The translations under genes were made by a program, and so were the position numbers. From positions 16,040,727 through 16,104,726 of the forward strand of contig CM073327.1 in NCBI GenBank assembly GCA_037043015.1: a DNA stretch of 64,000 nucleotides, in the 5' to 3' direction. The stretch's first letter is position 1, and each line of letters begins with the position of its first letter. This document shows, in pieces, positions 10,056 through 63,734 of the stretch. Origin of the DNA: Bryum argenteum. Lineage: Eukaryota > Streptophyta > Bryopsida > Bryales > Bryaceae. Below the pieces are notes generated by a model. That model saw only the letters and a program-made list of their open reading frames with translations. It had not been told where the DNA came from and did no database searches.

Positions 10056-12434
10056 TTACCAAACTCCACCACAATCTTTGCAAACATAATTGGTTAGGTT
10101 TTTTTTGTCTTTGCAAACCCCACATTGGTGCCTAGCTCTTGGAACTTTTTCAAGCCCATGAGTGCCCGGGGTGTATGTGGTAAGAGACACCACACCCTTC
10201 CGGTCTCGCCGCCACTCTGCCATGAGTGAGAATGCCAAAGCCAAAACAAAGTCCAAATGATTCCGAGGAGTCTTCCTCAAGTCCGCACTCTCCCGCTTAT
10301 GTATTATCCATGCATTCGTAATAGATAAGTCTATCAAGAACATAAATATACGATGCCACCACTTATGCGTTTTCGATAGCGCCGTGTACACTCCTCTAAG
10401 TTGGTCACTCACATCAACGCCGCGCATCATGCGCGTATATTCCAAGTGCATAGGAGAAGTAGGAATGTGCTCAGTCCTCCCACGGGTATACCGGGGCACC
10501 GTAAGAGGCACCTCGGTATTCGGTGACAATGGCTCCGCGTGGGTTGACAATAAAAGCACGGGTTTCTTGTCCACCCAAACAAGAGAGCATAACTCACCGG
10601 TGCAATGCATGCGCCAATCGGAGCTCCCTTGGGGTTGCTTTACCCACCGCCGCTTGTCCACCAAGTCGCTCGGTAAGCCGATCCGATTGACGCGCACGGT
10701 GCCGGTGGCGTATGTCCCCATGCTATGCAAATCGACAAAAAGTCTTGGCGAGGTGAAAAAGTTGTCGGTGACGACAACATGGCCCCGCCCGTGCAATCCC
10801 TCCATCAATCCCATCACCACTTCGTATCCCGTTTTCGCCTCCCCCGGTTTCGCCGTGCGCAGACTTTTCTTCAGGTCCGCCCCCGTGTAGACTTGGAAGT
10901 TGTAGAGGTACTTGGACTTCGAATCCGCCGCCGCCCAAATTTTGAAGCCAAACTTGACCGGCTTGTTTGGCATGTATTGCTTCATGCCGTGGCCGTAGAT
11001 TCCTTTGTATCTAACCATGAGCTCATCAACGGTTACAAATTGTCCAAGATTCCAATTTGCCACACATTGGAGTCTCACCTCCTCAATTAGCCACCTCAAT
11101 TCCACTAATTTGTCAAAGTTAGGATCATTCTTATCCGTCGGGGCCATGGAGTCATCATGGATATGCAAGCATTTTGTTATAGCTTCATATCTCTTCATGC
11201 TCATGGTGTTAGCAATAGTGTGACAATAATAAAACGGTTCTCTACCCCTCCAATAGCATCTACGGTTAGGCATAATTTTCAACCCCATTAGTATTGACAC
11301 TCCTAGCCACGCCTCTAACTCCGGAACCGTCAATCTCCACCAATCTTTGGCGCCCCTAGTAAATCCCGTAGCGGGATCAATTGAAGCGGCATATCGGTTA
11401 CTCTCTCTAACTATTTTCCGCAAAGTCTTCCTTGTGAAGAATTTGTGGAACAAGTCTAACAAGGGTGTCAATTTCCTAAGAACATACGGCGGGCCGTCAC
11501 TAGGGCCGGTGAAAACAACGTTGTCATGAGTGTATTTTGAGCCAAATTTGCCCCAAAACTCATCGGCGTAGCACTCCTTGAAAGATGCCCCAATATCCCA
11601 ATTACTTAGAGTTTTTACCACTCCCCTTCCTCTCCCCCTTCCACCATTAGAAGGCCCACTTACCCTTGCACTTTCAACTTCAGCAAAGTGTGGCTGCTCG
11701 CTGTGAGACACATGCATGTTGCCTCCAGGGCTTTCACTTGGGGGCCTAACCCCCAAAGAAAAGTTTGTACATGGGGTTCTAACCCCCAAGGACTGAGTGA
11801 AATTCGGCGGGGCCACCTCGGCGGGGCCTGCCACCTCGGCGGGGCCTGCCACCTCGGCGGGGCCTGTCCGCTCCGCGGTGGCCTCCCAGCTTGAATGGCT
11901 TCGGATGGCGGAGGGCCTGCCAGCTTGAATGGCTTCGAAGGGCGGAGGGCCTGCCACCTTCGGAGGGTCTGCCAGCTTCTGAGCGGGGCCTGCCAGGCTC
12001 GGATGGCTTCGGAGGGGCCACCTCGGCGGGGCATGTTCGCTCGGCGGGGCCTGCCAGCTCGTCGGCAGGGCCTGCCACCTCGTCGGCTCCCGCCCTCCGA
12101 AGACATCCACCGGCTGCCTCGTGGAAAACGGCAGCCTGCATGCCACCATCTGTCGCTCAATTGGGGCCCGAGTGCATCCCCGTGGCAGCGGCTCTACCGT
12201 TCGCGCCCTCGCTCCATCGGCCGCCAAGCCTACGCATCTGAGATCCGAATTCGGTATTCGAATTCTGAAGCTGGTGCGCGAAGTCGTCATTGAGTAGGAG
12301 CAAGTCCAGTTCCTCTTCACTGGATGAATCGCCGAAGTCACTACCACAAGGAGGAGCAAGATCTTCAGGTTCGCCCACTTCTTCTTCACTTTCCTGCAAC
12401 TGTGTGTGTGCATAAATCGTAGCAATATCACCAA
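10056..12434 (-). CDS. piggyBac transposase, catalytic region
   Basis: A 792-codon frame encodes the DDE_Tnp_1_7 fold of piggyBac transposases, which cut and paste DNA at TTAA sites. The domain begins near residue 280 (NWDIGASFKECY). The three catalytic aspartates are recognisable at about residues 470 (VTVDELMV), 557 (VVTDNFFTSP) and 674 (MRGVDVSDQLRG), with spacing like that of the family. A motif-rich middle (NKPVKFGFKIWAAAD) and a cysteine-rich C-terminal zinc module (CGVCKDKKN...YVCKDCG) complete it. The first roughly 270 codons of this frame run through a GC-rich minisatellite and are probably not the true N-terminus. That is more likely the acidic segment in another frame at 12646-12157, joined by an intron or frameshift near 11.8-12.2 kb. 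The catalytic core itself looks intact. Confidence 0.9.
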   Translation of the reverse strand: MVILLRFMHTHSCRKVKKKWANLKILLLLVVVTSAIHPVKRNWTCSYSMTTSRTSFRIRIPNSDLRCVGLAADGARARTVEPLPRGCTRAPIERQMVACRLPFSTRQPVDVFGGREPTRWQALPTSWQAPPSEHAPPRWPLRSHPSLAGPAQKLADPPKVAGPPPFEAIQAGRPSAIRSHSSWEATAERTGPAEVAGPAEVAGPAEVAPPNFTQSLGVRTPCTNFSLGVRPPSESPGGNMHVSHSEQPHFAEVESARVSGPSNGGRGRGRGVVKTLSNWDIGASFKECYADEFWGKFGSKYTHDNVVFTGPSDGPPYVLRKLTPLLDLFHKFFTRKTLRKIVRESNRYAASIDPATGFTRGAKDWWRLTVPELEAWLGVSILMGLKIMPNRRCYWRGREPFYYCHTIANTMSMKRYEAITKCLHIHDDSMAPTDKNDPNFDKLVELRWLIEEVRLQCVANWNLGQFVTVDELMVRYKGIYGHGMKQYMPNKPVKFGFKIWAAADSKSKYLYNFQVYTGADLKKSLRTAKPGEAKTGYEVVMGLMEGLHGRGHVVVTDNFFTSPRLFVDLHSMGTYATGTVRVNRIGLPSDLVDKRRWVKQPQGSSDWRMHCTGELCSLVWVDKKPVLLLSTHAEPLSPNTEVPLTVPRYTRGRTEHIPTSPMHLEYTRMMRGVDVSDQLRGVYTALSKTHKWWHRIFMFLIDLSITNAWIIHKRESADLRKTPRNHLDFVLALAFSLMAEWRRDRKGVVSLTTYTPGTHGLEKVPRARHQCGVCKDKKNLTNYVCKDCGGVW
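11800..12090. repeat. GC-rich minisatellite in the transposase gene
   Basis: Starts with about four copies of an 18-bp unit (CCTGCCACCTCGGCGGGG) and continues as degenerate relatives (cttgaatggcttcgg, gggcctgccagct). It is open in several frames on both strands and much more GC-rich than the surroundings. It sits between the acidic N-terminal segment and the catalytic core, so it may lie in an intron or be a late expansion. Confidence 0.75.
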
Positions 12435-12646
12435 ATGGTATTTCCATGCTTACATCGTTGACTTGCACCACATACATCAATCTTGATGAGATTGGACATA
12501 CAAAGCTTCCTGTGGCAGTTCCCCTCAACCACTGCTCTAAACTTTCCTCATCCTCTTCTACAGCTTCACTCTCTGGACCTAACACTCTTTGCTGAAGCAC
12601 CCTGACTTCTACAGGTGAAACAATATGCCTAGGCAAGGTCGGATTC
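12157..12646 (-). pseudogene. Acidic N-terminal segment of piggyBac transposase gene
   Basis: A minus-strand open stretch rich in E/D (AVEEDEESLEQW, then GDSSSEEELDLLLL), typical of the poorly conserved acidic N-terminus before the piggyBac catalytic domain. It begins at the Gypsy LTR boundary and is in frame with the coding sequence on the far side of the insertion at 21710. Removal of the retrotransposon and one target duplication would therefore rejoin the frame (short junction: VPMD then PTLPRH). It ends in a stop at 12157, before the catalytic frame takes over. Confidence 0.65.
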
Positions 12647-16867: not shown

Positions 16868-19785
16868 CCTGTGTAACTCCAACCGATCTGCCACTGGATT
16901 GATTTGTTTACGGATGGCAAATGGTCCCAATCTTGATAGTCCAACTTATCACACGGCCGCTTGGTCTTGATATTCCGTCAAGCGACCCATACTTTATCTC
17001 CGATCTTAAAAGTAGGTGCCTCATTCAAATTTATCTGCGGACGCCTTGTACGACTCTTGGCGGTTTGCGATTGAAGTCTCGGCGTTCTTGAAGTTCCGAT
17101 AGCTGCTTCGCAAAATCTTCTGCTGCTGGGTTGTTATTGGCCACTGAATTCCATAAATCAAGCTTCGGGTGGTATCCGTAGTTGGCAAAGAATGGTGTTT
17201 GTTGGGTCGACGCATGAATAGTGTTGTTGTAGGCGAACTCGGCAAGCGGTAGATACTCGATCCAATCGTCTTGCTGATAGTTGATGGTGCAACGTAGATA
17301 CTGCTCCAATACTTGATTCACCCGTTCCGTCTGTCCGTCGGTTTGAGGATGAAATGCCGAAGAAAGCTTGATATCCACCTTCAATATCTCAAATAGAGAT
17401 TTCCAGAACTTGGAGACGAACTGGGTTCCGCGATCCGAGACAATATCATCTGGCAAGCCGTGATAACGATATACATTATCAAAAAAGAGTCTTTGCAGTA
17501 TCTTCGCCGACGATGTCTTCTTGCAAGGAACAAAATGCGCCATCTTCGTCAGCCGATCTACCACAACAAAGATGCTGTCAAACGAGTTTGAAGGCGGCAG
17601 GTCCGTAATGAAATCCATGGAAACTGAAGACCATGGTCGATGCGGGATAGGCAATGGCTGCAAAAGTCCATAGGGCGATCTGAGGGTTCTTCGACCTTGA
17701 ACAAATATCACAAGAGAGAACAAACTCCTTCACATCCTTCCACATTTGGGGCCACCGAAAGTCTCGCGAAATAAGCTCCAATGTCTTGTTGTATCCAAAA
17801 TGTCCTGCAGCTGGAAAGTCATGGCGTGATTGGAGGACTCGAAGCCGTGTTCGTCCCTTAGGAATATACGATCGCTCTTCAAAGTACAAAAGATCTCCCT
17901 CCACCTTGAACTTGTCATTATCAAGACGCTTCTTGATCTCGAGAGCTACTGAAATCTTCAATTGTCGCAGATGACGTATCCTGTTAAGGAAGTCCGTGTC
18001 AATTGGCATGATAAAGAACGCAAATTCTAAAATGCTCCGGTTTCAACAATGTGGTGCATTGTTGATCAAACGCTTCTCGACCGCTTAGGCGCTAGATACG
18101 ATCTCCTCGATAAGGCATCGGATAGTCCTTATTGCTTCCCAGGCCGATAGGTAATAACAAAGTCAAATCGCGACAACGACATATTCCACCGAGCAGCGTC
18201 GATTCAAGACTCGAGCCGACATAAAAGATTTCAAATTCTTGTGATCCGTGTATACGGTCACCTGGATGTCTGTGCCTTTCAAAAGTGTCGCCACTCTTGG
18301 AAGGAATCTACTATGGCAAGAAGTTCCTTTATCGTGGATTTCATAATTGATTTCAAAGCAGAAAAACTTTCGAGAATAGAACGCCACTGGATGAAGCTTC
18401 CGTCCACGTCCATCTCAGAAAAGTACGGCTCCCAAAGCAAAATCAAAGCATCGGTCTCCAAATAGAAGGCCTTTGTAAAGTCAGGATGTACCAAGATTGG
18501 AGCTGTGATAAATGCCATCTTGAGGTCTTGGAATGCCTTTTCTGCTTGAGGTCCCCATTCGAGCTTGTCCTTACAAGTCAACCGAGTGAGTGGAGCAGCG
18601 ACTCGAGAATAATTCTTGATGAAGATTCGATAGAAGTTAACAAATCCAAGAAAACATTGTACGTCTCTAACCGTCTTCGGAACCTCCCATGATACAATTG
18701 CTTCCACCTTCTTAGGGTCCATCTTCAAGCCGTCTGTAGTTGCAATGAACCCTAAAAACTCCATCTCGGTTTGGTGGAATAGGCACTTCTCCAACTTGGC
18801 GTAGAGTCCCGTTCGTAGTTTCTCGAGGACCAAACGAACGTCTTCTCGTGCTCTTCTTCGTTCTTGGAAAATATCGGGATGTCATCCAGGATAGATGACA
18901 ACAAAGTCGTCAAGTGCTCCCGAAAGATGTCATTCATCATGTGTTGGAAAACAAATGGAAGATTTGTTAGTAAGCCAAAAGCCATGACATTATATTCAAA
19001 ATGGCCATACTCAGATGCGAACGCTGTCTTCCACTCGCTCTCCTTCCTTGATCCGTACTTGGTTGTAAGCTCCCCTCGGATCAATTTTTGTAAAGATCTT
19101 TGCACGCCCGAGCCGCTCCCAAGAGACTGAAATCGAGGGTAACGGATAACGATTTTTCTTAGTTACCTTGTTGAGGCCTCGATAGTCCATGCACATTCGT
19201 AAATGAGCCATCCTTCTTCTTTACAAACAAGATCGGTGCCCCACCGGGCGACTTTGAATGACGAATGAAGTTCTTCGCTAGATTCTCGTCAATGTATCTT
19301 TCGCACTCCGCTAACTCCGTTTGAGAGAGATTGTAGATTGGGCCAAAAGCGGTTGTCTTTCTTTCTTGCGTGTCTATGGCGCGATCGTATGGCCGATCTT
19401 TCGGTAGTATGTCCGCGTTCTTCTTCAAACACGTCCTCAAAATCCTCATTGCTCTTCTGTATGCTTGCCGTCGAACTCTTCTCCGTGTTAGTTGGGACTG
19501 CATAGATGACAAAGGGTGTTGCTTCTTTGGATGATCGTACGTTAACGCCCTTGCTCCAATAAACAATGGTTTCCCTATCTTGGGATGTCTACTAGGTTGG
19601 CTCTTGGAATGTTCTTTGGAAAAAGTCATTTTCCGCAACTTCCAATCTATGGTAGGGTTATGTTGTTCCAACCAAGAGAGACCTAGGATGACAGGGTTTG
19701 ACGGGGTTCTAATGACATTAAAAACGACGTAACTACTATGGTCCTTAAACGCCACCTCTATAGTGCGATTCATGGGTGACACTCA
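16868..19785 (-). pseudogene. Gypsy pol remnant (minus element): protease end, RT, RNase H, integrase
   Basis: Minus strand, reading downward: protease/linker (VILGLSWLEQHNPTIDW, about 19700), RT ([18 protein letters not shown] at 19190; a degenerate catalytic box ILDDIPIFS at about 18900), RT connection (FLGFVNFYRIFIKNYS, 18640), RNase H (FYLETDA, IKELLAIVDSFQEWRHF), integrase zinc region (H...CDICSRSKNP, about 17700), and integrase core with DFITDLPPSN, IVSDRGTQF and QTERVNQVLEQ carrying the D, D and E residues. Frames change several times and stops interrupt it. The integrase tail stops at the nested insertion. Confidence 0.9.
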
Positions 19786-41708: not shown

Positions 41709-42137
41709 ACGAGCATTTCTAATGGAAGGAAGGATCGCTAAATGTGGCATCTTTTGGACTACACCATTCCAAAATAATTATCTTAATTTGTTGGTTTTAG
41801 TTTGCCTTCACAACACTATGACAAGAGTTCGAAAGTACTTGAAGTCCAAATGTTTCATTAAAGTGAGATTTTCCCAAAAGGCTTAGTATTTCCGAAGAGT
41901 CAAGTTAACTATGGGTATATGGAAAGCGCCGCATATAAGCTAGAGTTATGTGGGTTGATCTCTCCAACAAAGTTTGCATGTTCTCCAAATGAGATTCTCT
42001 TGACCGCTTCATAGGAACTTGTTCATCTTAAATCTAGTTGGTTATTGAGCAGGTTACGTTTCTCCTCATTTCTTCCTCCCCTTTACCGTACCGTGTTCCC
42101 CTTTGTAACGCATGTTCCCTTTCACCTACTTTCCCCC

Positions 42138-42275
42138 GCTTTTATTCCCTCGTCTTTTTATACTCTCATCTCCTTGTTTCCCCGCTTTTATTCCCTCGTC
42201 TTTTTATACTCTCATCTCCTTGTTTCCCCGCTTTTATTCCCTCGTCTTTTTATACTCTCATCTCCTTGTTTCCTT
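42138..42275 (+). repeat. 46-bp minisatellite, three near-identical copies
   Basis: Exact 46-bp period (42138, 42184, 42230). The pyrimidine-rich unit begins GCTTTTATTCCCTCGTC. The near identity implies recent expansion. It lies about 300 bp upstream of the MED15-like coding start. Confidence 0.95.
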
Positions 42276-42567: not shown

Positions 42568-45500
42568 ATGGAGTCGGATGAGCCTCCTCAACAGCCCCAA
42601 CAATCTCAAGACCCTCGTCAACTAGCCCCTAAGCAACCTCAACAATCTCCTCAGCCTCAGCAACCTCAGGAGCCTCAGCAACATCCGCAACATCCCCAAC
42701 CTCAGCCGCCTCTGGAGGTATCTCCAACGACCATTAAAAGAGGGAGAGGGCGACCACTAGGTTCGGGGGCTAAGATGAAGCACCAGCAGCCTTCTACGGC
42801 AATTCCACTGAACATCAAAAGAGGTAGAGGGCAACCTCGAGGTAGCGGACGTGGTCGTATTGGACAAGATGCAGCCTTTGTGGTGAGCTTTTCAGTTCTC
42901 TTTTTCACATCAACTCATGTGATTTACAATCCAATATGTACAACATCCTTTGAGCTCCATGAAACCTCAATTGCATGAATCCAATGATTATATAACATAT
43001 TTCTCAGAATGCCTCAATTGCAAGAAAGGACATGTTGCTGCACTAAAAGCACATGGTTTGTTATGCTTTCATGATTTAGAAAATGCAAAATTGTTTGAAG
43101 TTTGCATTTAAGTAGCTCAATCCTCTTGCAGGCTCTTCAACGCCAAACCCAACTAAGTAATGAAAATAGAACTCGAAATAACATACCAAGAGGGGGAGAA
43201 CCTGTCCAGTCCAATACTGGAGCACATGATGCTGTTCAGCAGCCCACTCTTGAGAACTTGCAGCAACACTATGGTGATAATGAATCTCCACGTGAGCCTT
43301 TTACTCTACAGGTGAGCTCTCGGCATGATGTCACTTAAGATTTCACAAGTATCGCTACTTGAATCTCATTTACATGATTGACATGGCAATCTCATTTCTG
43401 TGTTTCAAAGACGGCCACTGTCACAAGATTCCTTCTAACTTTGAATGTGCAATATTTTCATAATTCTTGCATTTAAACAGCTGCATGCATTCCTCTTGCA
43501 GAATCTGCATCTGCCACTAGAGCATCGTGGTAGAGGCATGCTCGACGCAGGTCGTTTCCAGTCTGATGTCGCACCACATGATGCGGTTCAGGAGTCCTCA
43601 CGGGGCATTTTACAGCCGCTTACTCCTGAGGATGGTCAGCGGGCATTTCAGGAGTTGCAACATCAGCCTTCACTTGAGCAGCCATCTTGGGATAATGTAC
43701 CTCCAAGGCTCGAGAATCCTCAGCTCCTGGTGAGCCTTTCCGTTCTCTAATTCACACCATTTGATGCCTGCTCCGAATCATTGTGAGACTCTATAGCCTC
43801 ATTTTTATGTTTCACATGCAGCATGACATTGTATCTCTGTTCTGGTTTTCAGGGACTCGTAAGGTAGTTGCAAGAATAGAACATGATTCATTCTAACATA
43901 AGATTCCCGAATGTGCAAAGTTTTATGAAGTTTGTGTTCAAATAGTTGAATTCCTTCGTAGGCTCTGAAAATGCAAATGGAACGTCGTGCTGCACGCATG
44001 GCTGGAGGAGGTCCTAAGTTCAGAGGAGGTACGTCCAGCGGAGGCCATACATTCAGAGGAGGTGGCGTCGGGTTCGAGCACATGATGCGATCACAAGATG
44101 CTATTCACCAGCCCTTTCATGGAATTCGTGATAACCAAACTCACGATGATCACTTACAATTGCTGGTGAGCTTTTCAGTCCACATTAACTAATGCTAGTT
44201 ACACTTCGATGTGTTTATTGACATTTCACCACTTCCTAGTTCCTCAATTTTGTGAATAGACCATTTACATGATGTTTTGTAACTTCTGTACTTCATGGAC
44301 AAGGTAGTTGCACCAAAAGTCATTTCAATTCTATAATTGAGAGCAAAGAATATTGTTTGAGGTTTGCGGTTGATAATCTAGATTCCTCTTGTAGGATTTG
44401 CGACGCCACTTGGAACAAAACCACGATATGGGCATTCACATAAGTCGTGTCCAGTCTGATGTTGGAGCACATGATGTTGTTAAGCAGGTGGCATGCGAGG
44501 ATGTCCAGCAGCCCCCTGGCCAGAATGATCATCAGCCTGCTAGTGAAAATGTTCAACAGCCGGCTAGCCATAATGTTTACTGGTCCCCTCCCGGCGAGAA
44601 TATCCCTCAGCCGGCTCCTCAGAATGTTTATCAGTCCCCTCCACAGAATGTCGAGCAGTATTCTCCTGAGCAGCTAGCTCTCAAGAATTTACATCAACCC
44701 TCTTGGATGGAAGAGCCCGCTCCCGAGAACGTACAACAACCCTTTTGCTTGGATATTGAAGAGCCCTCTAGACAATATGTACAGCTACCCTCTCAAGAGT
44801 ATGTTCAAGAGCCCTCTTGTGAGAATGTCCAGCAGGCCGATCGAGAGAATCAGTCTCCTCGTGAGATAATTTTGAGACAGGTTTGATCGACATCTACTCT
44901 GAAAATTTGATTATGATTACTTACTTTTCGTGCACGTGAGCTTTTGGTTTCATGTCAGTTGAGATTCAACAAGTATTGCTATTCTCAATTTAGTGTTTTA
45001 AGGACACTCACTGTAGCTGCGATTAAAGCACAATATTCATTCTACTTTGAATGTGCAATATTGTTATGAATCTTGCATTTAAGTAGCTAGATTCTTCTTG
45101 CAGGATCTGCAACTGCCACTGGAACATCGTGATAGAGGCATGCCTGCACACACTCGTTACCAGTCTGACGTCGGAGCACATGTTGCGGTTCAGGAGTCCT
45201 CCGGGAGGTTTTTACAGCGGGTTACTCTTGAGAATGCTCAGCAGGTTATTCAGGAGTTGCAAAACCCATCTTCTCTTCAGCAGCCATTGTTGGATGATGT
45301 TTCTTCCAGTCTCCAGAATTCTTCCCTGGTGAGACTTTCCGTTCTCTGATTCACATGCCTTTTGCGAATCATCGTGAGCATGAACAGCACGAAACAACAT
45401 GGGAAGCTTGATCTGTAGCCACATTTTCTTTTTTCACATGCATGACATTGTATCTCTGTTCTGGTTTTCAGGGACTTGTAAGGTAGTTGCATGAACAGAA

Positions 45501-48500
45501 CATGATTCATTCTGATACAGGAGTCCGGAATGTGCAAAGTTTTATGAAGTTTGCATTCAAATAGTAGAATTTCTTCGCAGGCTTTGAAAATGCCACTACG
45601 CCATTGTGCTGCACGCATGGCCAGAAGAGGAACGTTCAGAGGCCGTATGTCTAGAGGAGGAGGTACATCTAGAGGAGGCCGAACCTTAAGAGGAGGTGGG
45701 GTCGGGTTTGAGCACATGATGAGATCACAAAATGCTGTTCAGCAACCCTTTCGTGAGATTCGTGAGAATGAAACCCACGATGATGATCGGTTACAATTGG
45801 TGGTGAGCTTTTCAGTCCACACCAAGTGATGCCACTTACACTTCGATATGTGTACATATCTCCATTTCACCACTTCCTTGTTCCTCAGTTTCATGTGTAT
45901 CTTTTGTACAACATGAAATAGGCAGTGACATTTTAATTCAAAGCGAGGAATAGTGTTTCAGTAGTCATTTTTATTCATATGGAGGAATACTGATTTAGGT
46001 TTGCGATTGATTGGTCTGGATTCCTCTTTCAGGCTTTGCAAGACGACTTCGAACAACACCAAGGTTTGGGCATTCACATAAGTCGTGTCCAGTCTGATGT
46101 CGGAGCACCTCGTGTTGTTATGCAGCGGGCCTGCAAGGATGTCGAGCAGCCTGCTCGTGAGAATGTCCAACAGGCGGCTGGCCAGATTTTTTACTGGTCC
46201 CCTCCCGACAATCAGTACCGTCCCGAGATTGTCGAGCAGTATTCACTTGAGTATGATCAACAGCCAGCTCCCGAGAATGTACATCAACCCTCTTGGATGG
46301 ATGTTGAAGAGCCCGCTCCCGAGCATGCACAACAACCCTTTGGCTTGGATATTGAAGTGACCTCTCGACAGAATGTACCGCTACCCTCTCAAGAGAATGT
46401 TGAAGAGTCCTCTTGTGAGAATGTCCAAGAGCCCGTTCGAGAGAATGATCGTGAGATAATATTGAAAGAGGTTCGATCGACATCTTCTTTGAAATTTTGA
46501 ATAAGAGTACTTTCTTTCGGTTTGATGTCATTTGAGATTCCACAAGTGTCGCTACCTAATTTACATGATTGATGACCTGTGTCTCAACCGTCACGGTAGC
46601 TGCGACTAAGGCACAAGATTCATTCTAACTTTGAATGTACAATATTGTTATGAATCTTGCATTTAAATAGTTGGATTCCTCTTGCAGGATCTGCAAGTGC
46701 CACTGGAACATCGTGGTAGAGGCATGCCCGCAGACGCAGGTCGTTTCCATTCTGATGTCGGAGCACTTGAAGCGGTTAGGGAGTGCTTTGTGGGGGTTTT
46801 ACAACAGTCTACTCTTGAGAATGTTGAGTTGCAACACCAACCTTCTCTTGAGGAGCCACCTTGGGATGATGTAACTCCCAGTTTTGAGAATTCTTTCCTA
46901 GTGAGCCTTTTCGTTCTCTGATTCACACCATTTGATGCCTCTTACAAATCATTGTGAGCATGAACAGCATGAGAAGCTCTGTAGCCTCATTTTTATGTTT
47001 CACATGTATGACTTTATATCTTTGTTCTGGTTTTAACGGACTTGTAAGGTAGTTGTACAAATAGAACATGATTCATTCTGACATAGAATTCCCGAATGCA
47101 CAAAGTTTTATGAAGTTTGCATTGAAACAATTGAATTTCCTCGCAGGCTTTGGAAATGCCACCGGGACGTTGTGCTGCACGCATGGCCAGAGGAGGTACG
47201 TCCACAGGAGGTTTTATGTCCACAGGAGGCCGAACCTTTAGAGGAGATGGAGTCGGGTTCGAGCACATGATGAGATCACAGGATGCTATTGAGCAGCCCT
47301 TTGGTGAGATGCGTGAGAATGGAACTCAGGACGATGAGTTACAATTGCTGGTGAGCTTTTCAATCCACTCCAACTGATATTTACACTTCGAAATGTGTAT
47401 CAATATTTCACCACTTGCTCCCTCTTCAACTTTGCGATGTTGTTGTTAAGAAGCGGGCTAGCAAGGATGTTGAGCAGCCCCATGGCCAGAATGATCACCA
47501 GCCTGCTCTTCAGAATGTCCAACAGTCGGCTGGCCAGAATGTTTACTGGTCCCCTCCCGAGAATATCCCGCAGCCGGCTCCTCGGAATTTTTATCAGTCC
47601 CCTTCCGAGAATGTCCAGGAGCAGTATTCTTCTGAGTATGTTCAGCAGCCAGCTCCCGAGAATGTACAGTACATCAACCCTCTTGTATGGATGTTGAAGA
47701 GCCCGCTCGTGAGAACGTACAACAACTCTTTGGCTTGGATATTAAAGTGACCTCTGGACAGAATGTTCAGCTAGTAGCCTCTCAAGAGAATGTTCAGCCT
47801 GGGCCCACTCTTGAGAATTTGCAGCAGCACTCTCGTCTTAACGAATCTCCACCTGAGCCTTTTTCCGTGCATGTGACCTTTCGATTTGATGTCAGTTGAG
47901 ATTTCACAAGTAGGGCTACCTCATTTACATGATTGACATGGCCATCCCATTTCTGTGTTTCAAGGACAGTCACGGTAGCTGCAGTTAAAGCACCATATTC
48001 ATTCTAACTATGAATGTGCAATATTGTTATGAATCTTGCACTTAAATAGCCGGATTTCTCTTGCAGGATCTGCAACTGCCAGTGGAACATCGTGGTAGAG
48101 GCATGCCCGAGTTTGATGTCGGAGCATTTGACGCGGTTAGAGAGTCCTTTGGGGGGATTTTAGAGCAGTCTAGTCTTGAGGATGCTGAGCGTGCCTTTCA
48201 GGAGTTGGAACAACAGCCTTCTCTTGAGCAGCCACCTTGGGATGATGTACCTCCCGGTCTCGACGATTCTTTCATGCTGGTGAGCCTTTTCGTTCTCTGA
48301 TTCACACCATTGGATGCAAATTACAAATCATTGTGAGCATGAACAACATGAGAAGCTTGAATCAGATTATTTACATTGAATGAGATCATTTACATGTTCT
48401 ATATATCTTCAGTACTTCATGCACTAGCAGCTCCACTAGAAGTCATTTCAATTCTGATTCAGAGCAAGGAATATTGTTTGAGGTTTGCAGTTGATAATCT

Positions 48501-50650
48501 GGATTCCTCTTGCAGGCTTTGCCACGCGACTTCGAACTAAACCATGGTTTGGGCATTCACATAAGTCGTGTCCAGTCTGATGTCGGAGCACATGATGTCG
48601 TTAAGCAGCGGGCTAGCGAGGATGTTGAGCAGCCTCCTGGCCAGAATGATCACCAGCCTGGTTGTGAGAATGTCCAACAACCGGCTGGCCAGAATGTTTA
48701 CTGGTCCCCTCTCGAGAATATCCCGCAGCCGGCTCCTCGTAATGTTTATCAGTCCCCTTCCGAGAATGTGGAGGAGCAGTATTCTCTTGAGTATGTTAAG
48801 CAGTCAGCTCCCGAGAATGTACATCAACCCTCTTGGATGGATGTTGAAGAGCCCGCTCCCGAGAACGTATAGCAACCCTTTCACTTGGATATTAAAGAGC
48901 CCTCTCGACAGAATGTTCAGCAGGCCGATCGAGAGAATCAGTCTCCTCGTGAGATAATATTAAGAGAGGTCTGATCGACATCCAGCTACTCTGAAAATTT
49001 GATCAAGAATACTTATGAATTTACACAGTAGTGGGAACTAGTACGGTGTCAATTTTACTCGATCAACAAATCATTCTTGGTCTGTTGCGGAAAAATTAAT
49101 GACTAATCTTGTTCTTGTGACTGTCTACAGATGCCAGCAACTGAACGCAATATAGTGCCGACCAACTTCACACCCGAGCTCGTGGACATATCACGCCAAC
49201 CCTACCAGGCAGAAGTTCCGACAGCCACAGCTAGACCACGAGCTTCATTGAGGCGGTTTCGACGTACAGTCGAATCGGTGCCAACCACCATGATGTCCGC
49301 AGACGGGAGTGTAACCAGGATCCAGCCCGGGCCTTATGACTCTGCAGTCCTACTTCCCAACAGTCCCCACAGTATCGAGGTATGTCATGAACAACATAGA
49401 CTACTGCTAGGAAAAGTGAGAATCAGTGCAATGAACGAAACGATTGTCGTGTCAGTGTCAATGTGAACTGATACTGTAAGCTTCTACGTGTATGTTTATT
49501 TAACTAGGAACGGCGGATCACAGTCATTTCAAGGATATGGAATCGAAACAATCCACAATGTCCTGCAAAAGACTTTTATTACAATGTATGAACAGATCTT
49601 CAATCTACTGTTCCACCAGTAAGTCATAACTCTACACCCTGGTTTCTCACTTCAAAATAGTAACAGATTTTTGGTTTTTTGGGACATGATCAGATCCGAG
49701 AAAAGGTGCAGGAAGAGTTGAACATCATCAACGACAGATTGTTTGATACTTTTTTGGAAATCTGCGAGGCTCCTGCATCGAGCCAAATTGGCATATTGAG
49801 GCTTTCTTGCACTTACAAAGCCGTGGGCTTTAGTGCAGATTGGGGTCCTATGGTAAGAAACTTTCGCCGGTCTTGCTTGCTTTCGTACCAATACTTAAAT
49901 CTAGTTGATGCATATATCCATTCAACGTTAATGTGGAGTACTTAAGTGTAAGTGAGTTATTACATTATTTAGTTTATTGTTTTATATCTGATTTAAACTC
50001 TAATTTTTTTGTGCAACATGACAGAAACCCAAGCCATATACACTCTTTTTGACTGTACCACCAGCCTATCCCCAACAGTCCCCCGATCTCTGTTTAGACG
50101 AAGCAGAAACAGAGTAAGCTTCTATCTTTTGTCCATGCTGTCTCTTCAATCTTGCAATTTGATAGATCATTTGTAACTTATCCTCCCTACATTTGGCAAA
50201 CTCTTGGGCTTGAATTCCAAGAGAAAGTAATTTTTACAGCTTGTTTGCATGACTCTAAAGTATTTAAAAGTTGTGTTCATAATACACCTCTTTGAGTCAT
50301 TATGAACAAGTCGTATAAATCAAGAGGATGTTTGTCTTCAGTAGCAGCATTGAATGAACAAGTAACGTTGATTGATTAGCAAAAGTGATGTAGGAGGGAT
50401 ATGGCATTGTAGTTGGTGAGTTACCATTCTGACGAAATGTTTTGGAAAAATTTGTAGAGCCCCATGTTACAAGGGAGTACGAGAGTACTTTATACAATAT
50501 ATCTCTAGCAGGCGAGCACCTATTTCTCTCATTGAGATTGCCACCACTTGGGACCAGTATGCTCGGAATGCTCTCAACGGGTATGCAATTCGGCATGGTG
50601 GTGGCGGGTTCTCTGAGGCCATTGGTGTTTGGGAGACGGCAAATTTTTGA
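42568..50650 (+). CDS. MED15-like Mediator subunit gene with amplified exons
   Basis: Multi-exon gene model: 42568-42882, 43132-43311, 43502-43729, 43962-44165, 44395-44880, 45104-45328, 45581-45802, 46033-46470, 46688-46900, 47147-47350, 48067-48279, 48516-48968, 49131-49379, 49508-49585, 49694-49852, 50025-50113, 50458-50650. All introns start GT (mostly GTGAGC) and end AG. Exon 1 is P/Q-rich with AT-hooks (KRGRGRPLGSG). The middle exons are Q/P-rich and RGG-rich. The last three exons match the plant MED15 C-terminus: LNIINDRLFDTF, TVPPAYPQQSPDLCLDEA, and SLIEIATTWDQYARNAL followed by a G-rich F-x-x-x-x-G-x-W-E end. MED15 is a tail subunit of the Mediator co-activator of RNA polymerase II. 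No KIX domain is seen in this window. An AG just before the first exon (42561) suggests an upstream leader exon. Exon 48516-48968 holds an in-frame TAG at 48870, so a full-length product needs that exon skipped. The last five exons alone give 255 codons from an ATG at 49131. Confidence 0.7.
43502..45103 (+). repeat. Tri-exon unit 1 (exons B1, C1, D1)
   Basis: Exon B1 43502-43729 (LPLEHRGRGM, SDVAPHDAVQ), C1 43962-44165 (RGG/FRGG box, VGFEHMMRSQDA), D1 44395-44880 (HISRVQSDVG, then about ten ENVQQP-like repeats). Introns are homologous to those of the other units, so the duplication is at DNA level. This is the best-preserved unit. Confidence 0.9.
45104..46687 (+). repeat. Tri-exon unit 2 (exons B2, C2, D2)
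   Basis: Exons 45104-45328, 45581-45802 and 46033-46470, in the same order and phase as unit 1. C2 has a stronger RGG box (SRGGGTSRGGRTLRGGG). D2 is 48 bp shorter than D1. Confidence 0.9.
46688..48066 (+). repeat. Tri-exon unit 3 (exons B3, C3, decayed D3)
   Basis: B3 46688-46900 and C3 47147-47350 are intact. D3 (about 47436-47890) has lost its splice acceptor and first roughly 30 codons. It also carries a 5-bp duplication (GTACAGTACA, 47664-47673) that shifts the frame. It is probably no longer an exon. Confidence 0.85.
48067..49130 (+). repeat. Tri-exon unit 4 (exons B4, D4; C exon missing)
   Basis: B4 48067-48279 runs through a single 236-bp intron to D4 48516-48968. The C exon and flanking intron are deleted. 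D4 has a nonsense codon TAG at 48870-48872 where units 1 and 2 have CAA. Confidence 0.88.
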
Positions 50651-58303: not shown

Positions 58304-58895
58304 TTTAGAATTTTCATGTGTGCAAACATAAGGTTCTTGTTGAATGCAAAAAGTTTCGTGATTTTATTTGCATTATTCAAATAGTTATAATTGTTTAAAG
58401 TGAAAAGTTGCTTGGAACCTAAAGTCGATCACATGCTCAAATATACAACTGAGGTACATCTGTTCTTTCAAAATCTAGGAATTGGGCTTCATCGGTTATG
58501 GGTCCCCGGTCGGGAATGGGTCCCTTTACCTTAATAGAATTGAGAGTCCACCTCGGCTGCCGATTTTGTCGAGAAGAAGGGCTCAAAAATTGGCGGAATT
58601 GGACATACGGTCCTTCAACGTCCAACCAATGACAGCATACGCCGGCGATGCTTGCGTTCATGTGTGTCAGCCGGTCACGTTCACAGCCCCTGACCAGCGC
58701 GTTCCCAACCGTGTTCCCATCTTTCGGGGAGCGTCGAGTATTACAAGCCCGTGCATTCCGCTTCGGCAGAGGAGCAGATCGAGACCCGGAGATCGAGGGC
58801 ATCACTTCACCAGAAAGCGCAAACATCACATTCTCTCGATCTCTCCCTTTTCCCATACAACTGCTTTGATCGATCGGGGGCAGGGCATTGCAGCG

Positions 58896-61631
58896 ATGGG
58901 GAAGGAAGACGAGCAGCCATCGTGGGTAGTGAGCAAGACGGCGCGAGCGCCCAGCAACATCGCTGTGATCAAGTACTGGGGCAAGCGTCACGAGAAGCTC
59001 ATCCTGCCCATCAATTCCAGCATCAGCGTCACGCTCGACCCCCAGCACCTGTCCGCCACCACCACCGTCGCTGCCAGCCCTCTCTTCTCCTCCGATCGCC
59101 TCTGGCTCAATGGCAAAGTACGCCCCGACCCCACCTCCCGCAATGTACTATTAGGTCATTGTTGTGATCGGACCAACTTAACCTTCTGCTGTCCTTGTTG
59201 TTGTTGCAGGAAGTGTCGGTGGAAGGCGAGCGATACAAGAATTGTTTGCGGGAGATGCGAGCTCGAGCTACGGATGTTGTAATTGAGTCTAGTGGTGAGG
59301 TTATTCGGAAAGAGGATTGGAGTAAGTTGTACATTCACATTGCCTCCGAGAATAACTTTCCTACTGCTGCTGGCTTGGCCTCCTCCGCTGCTGGCTTCGC
59401 TTGCTTAGGTACGCTACCCCTTTTTCAATGTTCAATCTTTCTTCTCGATCACCTAGAATCTTAATGAAAATGTTAGAAGTTTTTTCGTAACACATTAGCC
59501 ATTCTTATTTCTTCTGCTAATCATGCAGTAAGAATTGCTTAATTTGACCTTCTTTGTATGAGAAAGATTCAAACAATTTTTTGATATTGCTGCCTTGAGT
59601 GACCTTGTAGATGCATGCTTTTACAGACTCAGATGAATGCTGAATGTGAGTTTGAGATGTTGTTACTCTTGATATAGATACGGGTTACTATGGTTACTCA
59701 CACAATGCAGCAGATATTGCTTACTCTGACGAGAAAGATATGAATGATCTTTTCTTGTGGCAGTTTTTCCAAATTGCTCCTTGACGATCCTCGTAGATGT
59801 ATGCTTTCACGAGTTTTGAATCTAATTTTGAGATGTCGTTGTTTCAGTGTACGCTCTTGCTCAATTGATGGGAGTGAAGGAGCAGTATGAAGGAGAGCTA
59901 TCAGCAATCGCACGGTATGTAGCTTCCTCTCGCGCTCTTCAAGAACATAATTCTGAAATCGATCCTGAAATTGACCATGCGGTGTTTGTAGGGTTTTGTT
60001 CGACTAGATTCTAACACGTAGTTGTAAATGCAGGCTTGGATCTGGAAGTGCGTGCCGAAGCTTAGCCGGTGGATTTGTAAAATGGAACATGGGTCAGGTA
60101 AGCGAATACGTTTGAAGAATGTATTTTCTTCGATGAGTGGTATGAGCATTCATTGACAAGTGATGCCGTGTTTGCTGCAAGAATAGGAGGCAGACGGGAA
60201 GGATAGCATTGCAACGCAGCTCGCAGATGAGTCACACTGGGACGACCTTTTTATCATCATCGCTGTGGTAAGGATCTCTACCATTCTGGAAGCTTTCATG
60301 TTTCATGAATGTTTTCGTGCTTTTGTTGACGTTTATGAAACGGTAATGCAGGTGAGTTCGCGTCAGAAGGAGACTAGTAGCACCGCCGGAATGCAGGAAA
60401 GCGTCCGCACCAGTCCTCTTCTCAAGTACCGAGCTGAGGTCCACACATTCTCCTCCCTAATAGCAACTTATGCTCACTCTCTTAAATGATTGTTTTCAGT
60501 ATGGAAGTGGCTTACATTGTAATAGATTTGATGGACAGGAGGTTGTGCCGAAGCGTATTGAGCAGATGGAGAAAGCCATCGAGTCAATGGACTTTGCAGA
60601 GTTTGCGAAGATCACCTGTGCAGACAGCAATCAGTTCCATGCGACGTGCTTGGACACTTCTCCGCCAATCTTCTACCTAAATGACACTTCTCGCAGGTAA
60701 TGCTTTGAATCACTTCCAAATTTTTGGATTAGTAGCTTTCAGATGAGATGAGTGAACATCCTTCGTGGTCATGCAGGCTCATTGGCTTGGTGGAGCGGTG
60801 GAATCGTCATGCTGGAGAAGCTCAGGTGATTACCGAACCCCATTTTTCTCAATGAAGTGTATTGTATTTGGATTGTTCTCTGAATGGATCGTTTTGCAGG
60901 TTGCGTATACATTCGATGCAGGTCCGAATGCTGTGATGTTTGCTCGTAACAAGGAAGTAGGAGCGCAGCTGCTCCAACGCCTTCTTTATCAGTTCCCTCC
61001 TGCTTCTGATTCTGATTTCTCCAGGTGAGAATCACTCCTAATTGTGCAGGAACGTGATTACTGTGGAGAGTTCTTTATTTTGATACCAATCAAATTTTCT
61101 AATCATCCGTATGGACTCTTTCAAAATGGGAGGTTGTTCATAGTCAACCCAGTCACCCAACTTGTGTGAAATGAAAAACTTGACAACTTCTGCCACCAAT
61201 TACAATATTAATTCACCGAGAGTGCAGGCGGCTCAACCGTATGGAATTAGGGTCTTGGAATCCTCGAGGTTGTAGTGGAGATGCAGAACTAGTTCTTATG
61301 GTATTCTTAGCTACGATTAGAATTATTTTACTCACTCTTTTTCTGTCTATGAGAGTACAAACTCATTGCTTCTGGTGGCGATGCTTGCTGCAGGTATGTA
61401 GTAGGCGATCAAAGTATACTTGAATCAACAGGGTTGAAATCACTGAAGGATATCGACGCCCTCGCAGCACCAGTGGAGTTGACGACTGCCGGAGTGGTGA
61501 ACCCGCCGAGGATTCGTGGCGAGGTGGACTACCTCATCTGCACTCGTGCTGGGAAGGGTGCGCATGTTGTGGAGGATGCCAGCAGCAGCCTCTTGGATCC
61601 TGTCTCTGGTGTTCTCAAGCAAAAGCAATAG
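58896..61631 (+). CDS. MVD: Mevalonate diphosphate decarboxylase (10 exons)
   Basis: Catalyses the ATP-dependent decarboxylation of mevalonate 5-diphosphate to isopentenyl diphosphate, the last step of the cytosolic/peroxisomal mevalonate pathway. Exons: 58896-59117, 59210-59408, 59848-59914, 60034-60097, 60187-60267, 60352-60438, 60539-60696, 60777-60825, 60900-61024, 61394-61631. They sum to 1290 bp, 429 residues plus stop, with GT-AG introns and matching phases throughout. Key motifs: [14 protein letters not shown] (residues 18-31, active-site Lys26), the GHMP-kinase ATP loop [14 protein letters not shown] (125-138), GSGSACRS with Arg171, [11 protein letters not shown], and catalytic Asp315 in YTFDAGPN. 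Length is normal for the plant enzyme. The ATG at 58896 matches the family start. An in-frame open stretch continues 138 codons upstream without a stop but has no family similarity. It appears intact and functional. Confidence 0.95.
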
Positions 61632-62846
61632 TGGTTCTCATTCTTTCTAGTTTTATTACTGAGATACTCTTGGTATCTCAGACAGAGGTACTGTAGTGGT
61701 CTGTAAATTTAGCCATTCTTATTACGTATTGGTACACTCTCCATTCTATTTAGTGTGCTACCTACAGTAAAATTGAAACTATTTAGTGTGCTACCTACAG
61801 GAAAATTGAAAACGAACAAGAAGCTAGAGTTTGTCAAGACATCATGCTCTTCGACTTTGTAAGGGAGTTTTTTTACAAATTTGAATATTTCATCATTCTG
61901 ATTCGAATAATCTATCATCGTTCAATTGGTTGCATTTGAAATTGCAGTAAGGTGCTCAATAATGGCTCAATTTTCAGCGCAAAAAAATTTACAGGGATGT
62001 TACCAGTGCAAGTGATTTTTGTGCATGGAGAAGAGAGATAGAGCAAGTGGAATCATCACTTTTGGACTATTCTACAATGGGTTAGGAATTTTTGAAGTTG
62101 AAAGTACAGATGTTTCTAAAATGGTGCCCTAAAGTCACACCTTATAATGTATACAGTGAGTATATAATACTGTTATATAGGGAAGCTCATATGAACTTGT
62201 GAGTGAAGATTACTAGATCTCCATTATAGGACCAACTCCAGTTTAAACCACTCTACTATACATTCATTGTTGTCCTAAGAGTATCCCTATCCTTCAGTGG
62301 TTAATGCCACTTTCTTGAAAACCATATATGGTATGTGGCTTAAAACCCACACAACACCACAAGAGGAAGTACATTCTAGCAACTTCAGATTCTGCTGTAC
62401 TCATGGTGTGAATTTTTAGATTGAACCATTTTAGGTTCCACTTTTAAAATTCATAACCAATTCAATTTTCATTCAAACTTTATGATTAAATTGGTCCAAT
62501 CTCTTACACATTTTGCAGATCTACCAAAAATATGTCACTTTGTCACTTCTCATTGAGTTAGACAGACTGAAATTTGAGCGGTTTCTGAGCCAGTTACTAT
62601 AGCCAGCTTGGTACTTGGTTGAAATGATAGTACGTTTCTCTTCGTGCAAAGTCTGCAATTGAGTTCGTGAAAAGGATGGATAAGGGGCCCACACTTTCGC
62701 CGGAAGCTCGTATCATTTTCCAAAGACTGTAATCCATGATCAACCTTTCGAAGAGTCACTAGTCACGGCGGTGCTTCGATTACTGGCAATGGCGTGATTC
62801 TCTTGCTCAATTTCTTTCGGAAGCATTGTGAGACCGCAATTCCGCC
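61632..62846. other. Intergenic region between MVD and MENG
   Basis: Presumed 3' UTR of MVD and promoter/5' UTR of MENG. A 27-bp duplicated word (ctatttagtgtgctacctacag at 61746 and 61780) is the only structure noticed. Confidence 0.5.
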
Positions 62847-63734
62847 ATGGCAGCAGCAGCAGCCATGGCGCAAGCATGTGCACTGCGAGCCACTCTGCTC
62901 CCTCCTCCATCCTCATCTCAGAGAACCTCTCACAGCAAACAGGCAATGAGAATTAGTGCTATGACGACGGAGCAGGCGATGAGAGCAAGTGCTGTGGCGA
63001 AGCCGCTGGTGACGACGGAGCAGGTAGGGGAGCAAGAAGTGGAGCAGCGCCAGGAGCTTTTCAACAAGATAGCGCCAATGTACGACAATCTCAACGACTG
63101 GCTCTCTCTAGGCCAACACCGCGTGTGGAAGCGCATGGCAGTCTCCTGGAGCGGAGCAAAGCAAGGCGACAACGTCTTAGACATCTGCTGCGGCAGCGGC
63201 GACGTCGCTTTCCTGCTCAAATCCAAGGTTCGCCCTACCGGTACCGTCGTAGGGCTAGACTTTGCACAGGAGCAATTAGACGTCGCCGCAGAACGAGAGC
63301 ATCAAGCGGCATTCTCAAATTCCGGTGTGAGCATTGACTGGAGATTAGGCGATGCTTTGGATTTGCCGTTCGAGGACGGCACCTTCGATGCTGTCACTAT
63401 GGCTTACGGGCTCCGAAATGTAGCCAGTGTGCCCCTGGCTTTGGAACAGATTAGGAATGTACTGAAGCCGGGATCAAGAGCTTCAATTCTGGATTTCAAT
63501 CGGAGTGAGAGCGAGAGTATCTTAGGGTTTCAAGGATGGATGCTTGATAATTTGGTCGTGCCTGTGGCGTCGCAATTTGGTATGCAAGACGAGTATGCTT
63601 ATTTGAAAACCTCGATTGCAAGGTTTCCTACGGGACGTGAGCAGGAGACGATTGCGAAGGAGGTAGGATTTTCGAAAGCTGTGCATTATGAGCTTGCTGG
63701 TGGACTCATGGGCGTGCTGGTCTTGACCAAGTAA
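62847..63734 (+). CDS. MENG: Demethylphylloquinone methyltransferase, chloroplastic
   Basis: UbiE/MenG-family SAM-dependent methyltransferase that methylates the naphthoquinone ring in the last step of phylloquinone (vitamin K1, photosystem I cofactor) synthesis in the plastid. The intronless 295-codon frame begins with about 50 residues rich in A, S, T and R and poor in acids, as in a chloroplast transit peptide. Then come FNKIAPMYDNLNDWLSLGQH (72-91, UbiE signature), SAM motif I LDICCGSGD (111-119), VVGLDFA (134-140), GDALDLPF (168-175), FDAVTMAYGLRNV (180-192) and VLKPGSRASILDF (205-217). The C-terminus (Y-x-Y-L-x-x-S-I-x-x-F-P) is also typical. Mature length fits the family. A near-identical copy of its last 79 codons and 3' flank is at 2555-2900 in inverted orientation. 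Lack of introns contrasts with its neighbour MVD. Confidence 0.93.
   Translation: MAAAAAMAQACALRATLLPPPSSSQRTSHSKQAMRISAMTTEQAMRASAVAKPLVTTEQVGEQEVEQRQELFNKIAPMYDNLNDWLSLGQHRVWKRMAVSWSGAKQGDNVLDICCGSGDVAFLLKSKVRPTGTVVGLDFAQEQLDVAAEREHQAAFSNSGVSIDWRLGDALDLPFEDGTFDAVTMAYGLRNVASVPLALEQIRNVLKPGSRASILDFNRSESESILGFQGWMLDNLVVPVASQFGMQDEYAYLKTSIARFPTGREQETIAKEVGFSKAVHYELAGGLMGVLVLTK

Follow-up and report, generated by a model that had tools for sequence, protein, structure and literature searches.

How a gene for a Mediator-type protein may come to carry a long arm of repeated exons, and whether such a gene is still alive, are the questions raised by a locus of Bryum argenteum lying in a stretch of 64,000 nucleotides (contig C7, positions 16,040,727-16,104,726; hereafter the window). 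An earlier note on this DNA had described there a MED15-like gene in which exons of three types, B, C and D, recur in that order four times. The analysis reported here suggests that the locus is probably a fast-evolving MED15 paralogue lacking the KIX domain, one that grew by intragenic tandem duplication and whose frame-neutral exons could die or be lost without closing the reading frame. Acceptors, donors and open frames served to define the exons, a set then refined to X1, A, the B/C/D set, E1, E3, E4 and E5, and the locus was compared with the 259-Mb assembly (25 contigs). The repeated part of the gene is organized as follows:

42568..42882, + strand: exon X1, first coding exon (ATG), 315 nt, Q/P-rich, 3′ end in phase 0
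43132..43311, + strand: exon A, 180 nt, phase 0/0, kin to the B, C and D exons
43502..43729, + strand: exon B1, 228 nt, phase 0/0
43962..44165, + strand: exon C1, 204 nt, RG-rich, phase 0/0
44395..44880, + strand: exon D1, 486 nt, phase 0/0, with 24-bp (8-residue) repeats inside; donor CAG/gtttga
45104..45328, + strand: exon B2, 225 nt
45581..45802, + strand: exon C2, 222 nt
46033..46470, + strand: exon D2, 438 nt; donor GAG/gttcga
46688..46900, + strand: exon B3, 213 nt
47147..47350, + strand: exon C3, 204 nt
47437..47880, + strand: D3 remnant, a dead exon without 5′ part and acceptor, frameshifted, 3′ end of exon-A type
48067..48279, + strand: exon B4, 213 nt
48280..48515, + strand: fused intron iB4/iC4, the apparent scar of an intron-to-intron loss of C4
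48516..48968, + strand: exon D4, 453 nt, splice sites retained, in-frame TAG at 48870-48872

As it can be seen from this list, the four B starts (43502, 45104, 46688 and 48067, spaced by 1602, 1584 and 1379 bp) stand as first described, each B-type exon being preceded by a TTGCAG acceptor, but the idea of four complete units does not hold. Four B, three C and four D exons are present. Of the 12 expected, nine have survived intact, namely B1-4, C1-3, D1 and D2; D3 and D4 are damaged, and C4 is absent. The first two blocks are thus complete, the third consists of B, C and a dead D, and the fourth of B and D. The blocks, of about 1.6 kb with introns included, lie head to tail. Exon copies are 76-89% identical, and the introns proved homologous between units as well (85-88% for iB1-3, 83-85% for iD1-3, and 69-74%, depending on the alignment, for iC1/iC2), in agreement with tandem duplication of DNA within one gene. 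Self-comparison revealed 13 repeat families of 65-258 bp, in register and with 60-93% identity to the reference copies, which excludes chance. Misassembly of the units appears unlikely, since exon copies differ by 11-24% and the order B1-C1-D1-B2-C2 recurs in a second copy of the locus at C7:7.117 Mb. The predicted product is, as had been proposed, rich in Q/P and RG (24 RG, 7 RGG, hydrophobic residues making up 12-31% per exon), and X1 holds two KRGRGxPxGSG segments, which we take to be AT-hook-like. The repeat is thus real and well preserved, yet more degraded and older than the earlier note held.

A further level of organization, missed before, is the relation among the exon types themselves. 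Copies 1 and 2 of B, C and D, together with the neighbouring exons, were compared pairwise against 200 shuffles per pair. The pairs A-B1, A-B2, A-C1, A-C2, A-D1, A-D2, B1-D1, B1-D2, B2-D1, B2-D2 and C1-B2 scored above all 200 shuffles, with z scores of 14.9 for B1 and D1, 11.2 for A and D1, 6.2 for A and B1 and 5.3 for A and C1; weaker pairs were B1-C1, C1-D1 and B1-C2, reached by 1, 4 and 8 of the 200 shuffles, respectively. X1 is weakly related at most (best with C1, 1/200), and E1 is related to no array exon type (best with D1, 12/200). Among the introns iX1, iA, iB1, iC1 and iD1, nine of the ten pairs were unmatched by any of the 200 shuffles, the pair iA-iC1 being matched by three. The D exons carry a further internal repeat of 24 and 48 bp. 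As judged from these comparisons, A, B, D and, less surely, C are mutually related together with their introns, and the B-C-D block is a higher-order repeat; the membership of C in the putative ancestral exon family is the least sure element. The exon and intron results taken together make the array best read as one exon-intron pair that would have been amplified into types and then into blocks.

The proposal that any number of units could be spliced in or out without a change of frame was borne out by exon structure. X1, A, B1-4, C1-3, D1, D2 and E1 are multiples of three, D4 likewise by its length, and both ends of A and of all nine intact B/C/D exons fall in phase 0; skipping a dead or lost exon is therefore enough to keep the frame open. 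Gaps between copies follow the same pattern. With D3 set aside among the exons, and iB4 and iC3 (chimeric or truncated) and iD4 (the last D intron) among the introns, all pairwise copy-to-copy gaps in exons (29/29) and 5 of 21 in introns are divisible by three. Since pairwise gaps repeat the same events, distinct gap runs were also counted in this set of exons and introns, of which 17/17 in exons and 3/14 in introns are divisible by three (Fisher p=4e-6). This is read as the mark of selection that kept the frame during the divergence of the copies.

The damage to the array is confined to the third and fourth blocks. Between B4 and D4 lies an intron whose beginning resembles iB3 (93% over 81 bp) and whose end resembles a C-D intron (83% to iC1); it is apparently the scar of a deletion that removed C4 and left the frame untouched. 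In D3 the 5′ part and acceptor are gone, an insertion of 5 bp shifts the frame, and the 3′ end with the start of the following intron is of exon-A/intron-A type (79% over 128 bp); by its sequence this exon is a chimera with exon-A-type DNA, and dead. D4 retains both splice sites around its stop codon. With D3 and D4 left out, the gene model runs open for 1205 codons to its natural stop. Donors of the D exons fit the consensus at 5-6 of 9 positions, those of A, B and C at 6-8 of 9; the poorer fit, although no proof, makes skipping of D exons plausible, and weak D donors together with frame-neutral exons make splice variation of the array possible.

Downstream of the array lie the MED15-like 3′ exons:

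49131..49379, + strand: exon E1, 249 nt, phase 0/0, MED15-like (VESVPTTMMSADG; canonical locus VESIPLTMISADG)
49694..49852, + strand: exon E3, 159 nt
50025..50113, + strand: exon E4, 89 nt, ends in phase 2; the Med15_C match starts here
50458..50650, + strand: exon E5, 193 nt including the stop TGA; Med15_C

A stretch once taken as exon E2 (49508-49618) shows indels among the paralogues and fits its neighbours in no frame, and was rejected. Joined, E1-E3-E4-E5 encode 229 residues, of which residues 142-202 match positions 48-109 of the 110-position Med15_C profile (PF21539; 24.9 bits, E 2.8e-5), i.e. partially. A predicted protein of 66% identity (P0001) belongs to the same Pfam family, and a search of 5.8 billion predicted proteins with the C-terminal part returned three proteins of 146-170 amino acids, all from one source. 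No NCBIfam match was found, and X1 gave no Pfam match at E values up to 1. A PDB sequence search gave a weak match of query residues 100-194 to Niemann-Pick C2 (E 0.003) and two others weaker still, all of which were taken as chance; sub-threshold Pfam matches to RWD (E 0.12) and Daxx (E 0.048) were not used, nor was the AlphaFold model of P0001 alone (predicted local distance difference test score 46.6) used for fold searches.

On contig C2, at about 5.8703-5.8716 Mb, counterparts of E1, E4 and E5 occur with 43%, 40% and 50% identity, respectively, and reading by eye, which covered a counterpart of E3 and the E3/E4 and E4/E5 junctions, placed these junctions in like positions. Because of these matching exons and junctions, the locus is taken to be a duplicate at the DNA level rather than a retrocopy. 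KIX_2 (PF16987) matches nowhere in the window (8/8 candidates scored); its four matches lie on contig C2. For this reason the designation of the product as a Mediator subunit was too strong, the KIX-bearing MED15 region being situated elsewhere. The four KIX_2 matches spread over about 27 kb (C2:5836636-5863124, loci L028-L030) upstream of the MED15 C-terminal-type exons, and this cluster may reflect a tandem duplication of MED15 or of its KIX part.

The linkage of the array to the Med15_C exons (49131-50650), on which the earlier description depended, gains support from a paralogue on contig C3, where the order C-D-E is found with a similar D-E1 intron (83%). It bears directly on the view that two genes are present, namely a low-complexity gene that runs as far as the D4 stop, followed by a Med15_C gene that begins at E1. 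The in-frame TAG in D4, the weak D donors (5-6 of 9 consensus positions) and the ATG with which E1 opens would suit such an arrangement; however, in the contig C3 paralogue the first codon of E1 is GTG with C and D upstream, a normal acceptor precedes E1 in the window, and D4 and E1 are only 162 bp apart, which makes two genes highly improbable.

Several observations weigh against a living KIX-less paralogue. The Med15_C match exceeds its cutoff of 23.9 bits by 1 bit only. If D4 were always spliced in, the protein would stop at 1094 amino acids, before Med15_C. Kinship of C with B and D is uneven, and the pairs C2-D2, B2-C2, C2-D1 and C1-D2 (12, 16, 29 and 138 of 200 shuffles) are not significant. 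Searches of the 5.8 billion predicted proteins returned no relative of the array at the thresholds used, either with the long model (7948 candidates) or with D1 (11 candidates), which was searched separately because the length rule kept the full model from retrieving single-exon predictions; B and C were not searched alone. Constraint on amino acids is weak, with pooled ratios of nonsynonymous to synonymous differences per site (pN/pS) of 1.01 for B, 0.56 for C and 0.75 for D, in pools that include D4, exclude D3 and consist of non-independent pairs. Between the window and contig C3 the E exons evolve nearly neutrally (nonsynonymous rate dN 0.129, synonymous rate dS 0.155; p=0.74 for E3-E5), and the polarised changes of E3-E5 on the window branch, 23 nonsynonymous and 3 synonymous, are compatible with neutrality (p=0.24).

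The remaining comparisons fill in this picture. On the contig C3 branch the corresponding counts, 15 and 8, are neutral-compatible as well (p=0.14); positive selection was considered and is not supported. Against an older copy at C7:14.87 Mb, E3-E5 do appear constrained (dN 0.194, dS 0.466, p=3e-4). Values of dN/dS between the window and the C7:7.117 Mb copy are based on few changes: 0.055/0.043 for X1, 0.018/0.018 for B1, 0.048/0.120 for B2 and 0.024/0.020 for exon C2. Gap events between the window and contig C3 number 2 in 690 sites of the E exons, both triplets, and 18 in 747 intron sites, 6 of them triplets (p=4e-4). The open frame is thus preserved, the residues only loosely.

Since the frame is kept but the residues only loosely so, a dying gene stays a serious rival. 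According to this explanation, the locus would be a recently dead or dying pseudogene made of a duplicated MED15 3′ end and repeat exons, open only through shortness of time, with D3 and D4 as its first lesions. The death of D3, the stop in D4, a pN/pS of about 1 in B, the near-neutral change of the E exons on the window branch and the damage to the sister copies at C7:7.117 Mb and on contig C3 all fit it. On the other hand, despite 11-24% divergence, open frames with splice sites persist in nine of the 11 B/C/D exons present, in X1, in A and in all four E exons, and all counted exon gaps are multiples of three, whereas 11 of the 14 distinct intron gap runs are not. The pseudogene is considered rather unlikely, though the most probable of the alternatives.

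The history of the amplification can be followed in the related copies. The C7:7.117 Mb copy contains the upstream region, X1, A, B1-C1-D1 and B2-C2, is interrupted after exon C2 by inverted X1 copies, and lacks D2 and later units; it agrees with the window in 94-99% of aligned bases, exons and introns alike (87-98% in BLAST alignments when gaps are included). Of the seven exons that it shares with the window, frameshifts have disrupted A, C1 and D1, the last near its 3′ end, and a stop has disrupted C2, whereas in the window all seven are unbroken (4 against 0, one-sided p=0.035). The contig C3 copy (C3:21.93 Mb, 15 kb compared) matches only from the end of a B intron onward, as C-D-E; its C and D frames, read from DNA, are disrupted and its E exons open. 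At C7:14.87 Mb (C7:14867921-14870698, L025) E-type exons occur in which the last 168 nt, i.e. the last two-thirds, of E1 are present three times in tandem. Unit 1 of the window groups with unit 1 of the C7:7.117 Mb copy, and exons B2 and C2 with its B2 and C2 (support 0.99-1.0), so that units 1 and 2 predate that copy; deep branching with the contig C3 copy receives low support (0.54-0.87). The identity of 76-89% between exon copies, and the presence of unit 1 and B2-C2 in the C7:7.117 Mb copy, indicate that the amplification is old.

Recent or polymorphic change in copy number is accordingly unlikely, the exon copies being 11-24% apart and units 1 and 2 older than the C7:7.117 Mb copy. An array in which units are still gained and lost between individuals by unequal crossing over could draw on the differing unit numbers (four B in the window, two before the truncation at C7:7.117 Mb, one C-D on contig C3) and on the past loss of C4 and recombination between D3 and A. 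Homologous exchange is, however, expected to be rare between copies of such identity, units 1 and 2 match their counterparts unit for unit, and the C7:7.117 Mb and contig C3 copies were truncated by other breaks and so offer no clean unit losses; a polymorphic array is accordingly improbable.

If the locus is a KIX-less paralogue grown by exon-block duplication, one ancestral phase-0 exon with its intron would have given rise to the exon types, unequal crossing over between homologous introns would have produced the B-C-D copies, and an intron-to-intron deletion would have removed C4, D3 and D4 presumably being skipped in splicing. The predicted protein would then combine a Med15_C tether with a long low-complexity repeat arm and no KIX domain. 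That the protein serves as a Mediator tether which could compete with canonical MED15, its frame-neutral arm tolerating dead units and having its length and composition set by the number of units and by exon skipping, is an improbable extension.

In the presumed promoter/5′ region one more repeat was detected:

42134..42273, + strand: three exact 46-bp tandem copies (Tandem Repeats Finder, 3.0 copies, 100% matches)

Since they are exact, these copies probably arose later than the exon array. Partial copies of the upstream region and X1 are clustered, in both orientations, at C7:7085374-7119675 (17 of 22 matches), which suggests a fast-turning family of gene starts. Elsewhere in the window, a long open frame at 10059-12449 (- strand) encodes a DDE_Tnp_1_7 transposase domain (E 1e-77), which we take to be of the piggyBac type, a type not known to be common in flowering plants. 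Retrotransposon remains with integrase core and RNase H-like matches lie at 17034-18881 (- strand), and the open frames 58479-59279 and 62832-63731 are diphosphomevalonate decarboxylase-like and of the UbiE/COQ5-type methyltransferase, respectively.

Intragenic duplication of symmetric exons is exemplified by collagen, titin and nebulin. The array resembles such cases in its head-to-tail copies, homologous introns and single phase, which allow units to be gained, dropped or skipped with the frame intact; it differs in that the period consists of three unlike, largely related exons, in phase 0, in a host gene with a Mediator-type domain. With MED15 the locus shares the C-terminal Med15_C, the last-exon junctions (by eye) and a long Q-rich arm, and differs from it by having no KIX_2 match, by an arm of repeated exons and by its separation from the KIX-bearing region on contig C2. 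In a passage of PubMed Central article PMC4770211, Med15 is described as highly disordered in plants, metazoans and fungi. The ST proteins (DUF2775) are plant tandem-repeat proteins whose genes, according to an excerpt of PMC3499167, have one intron near the start codon in 19 of 29 cases, whereas here each repeat is its own exon. For soybean, an excerpt of PMC6770253 reports no tandem duplication, at the gene level, among 95 Mediator subunit genes. No MED15 exon array of this sort was found in the open-licence literature of PubMed Central (titles and abstract openings, among the matches listed), nor any paper there combining MED15, tandem and exon duplication.

The finding is ordinary in kind, belonging to a known type of gene growth without a new mechanism, and unusual in its host gene and legibility. 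A single locus records gain, deletion, chimerism and the death of single exons during the growth of an arm by exon-block duplication, and the triplet-only gaps show that the frame was maintained. If expressed, the gene would tie exon-block growth to the evolution of a Mediator-domain protein, in which the length of the arm could be counted as exons per transcript.

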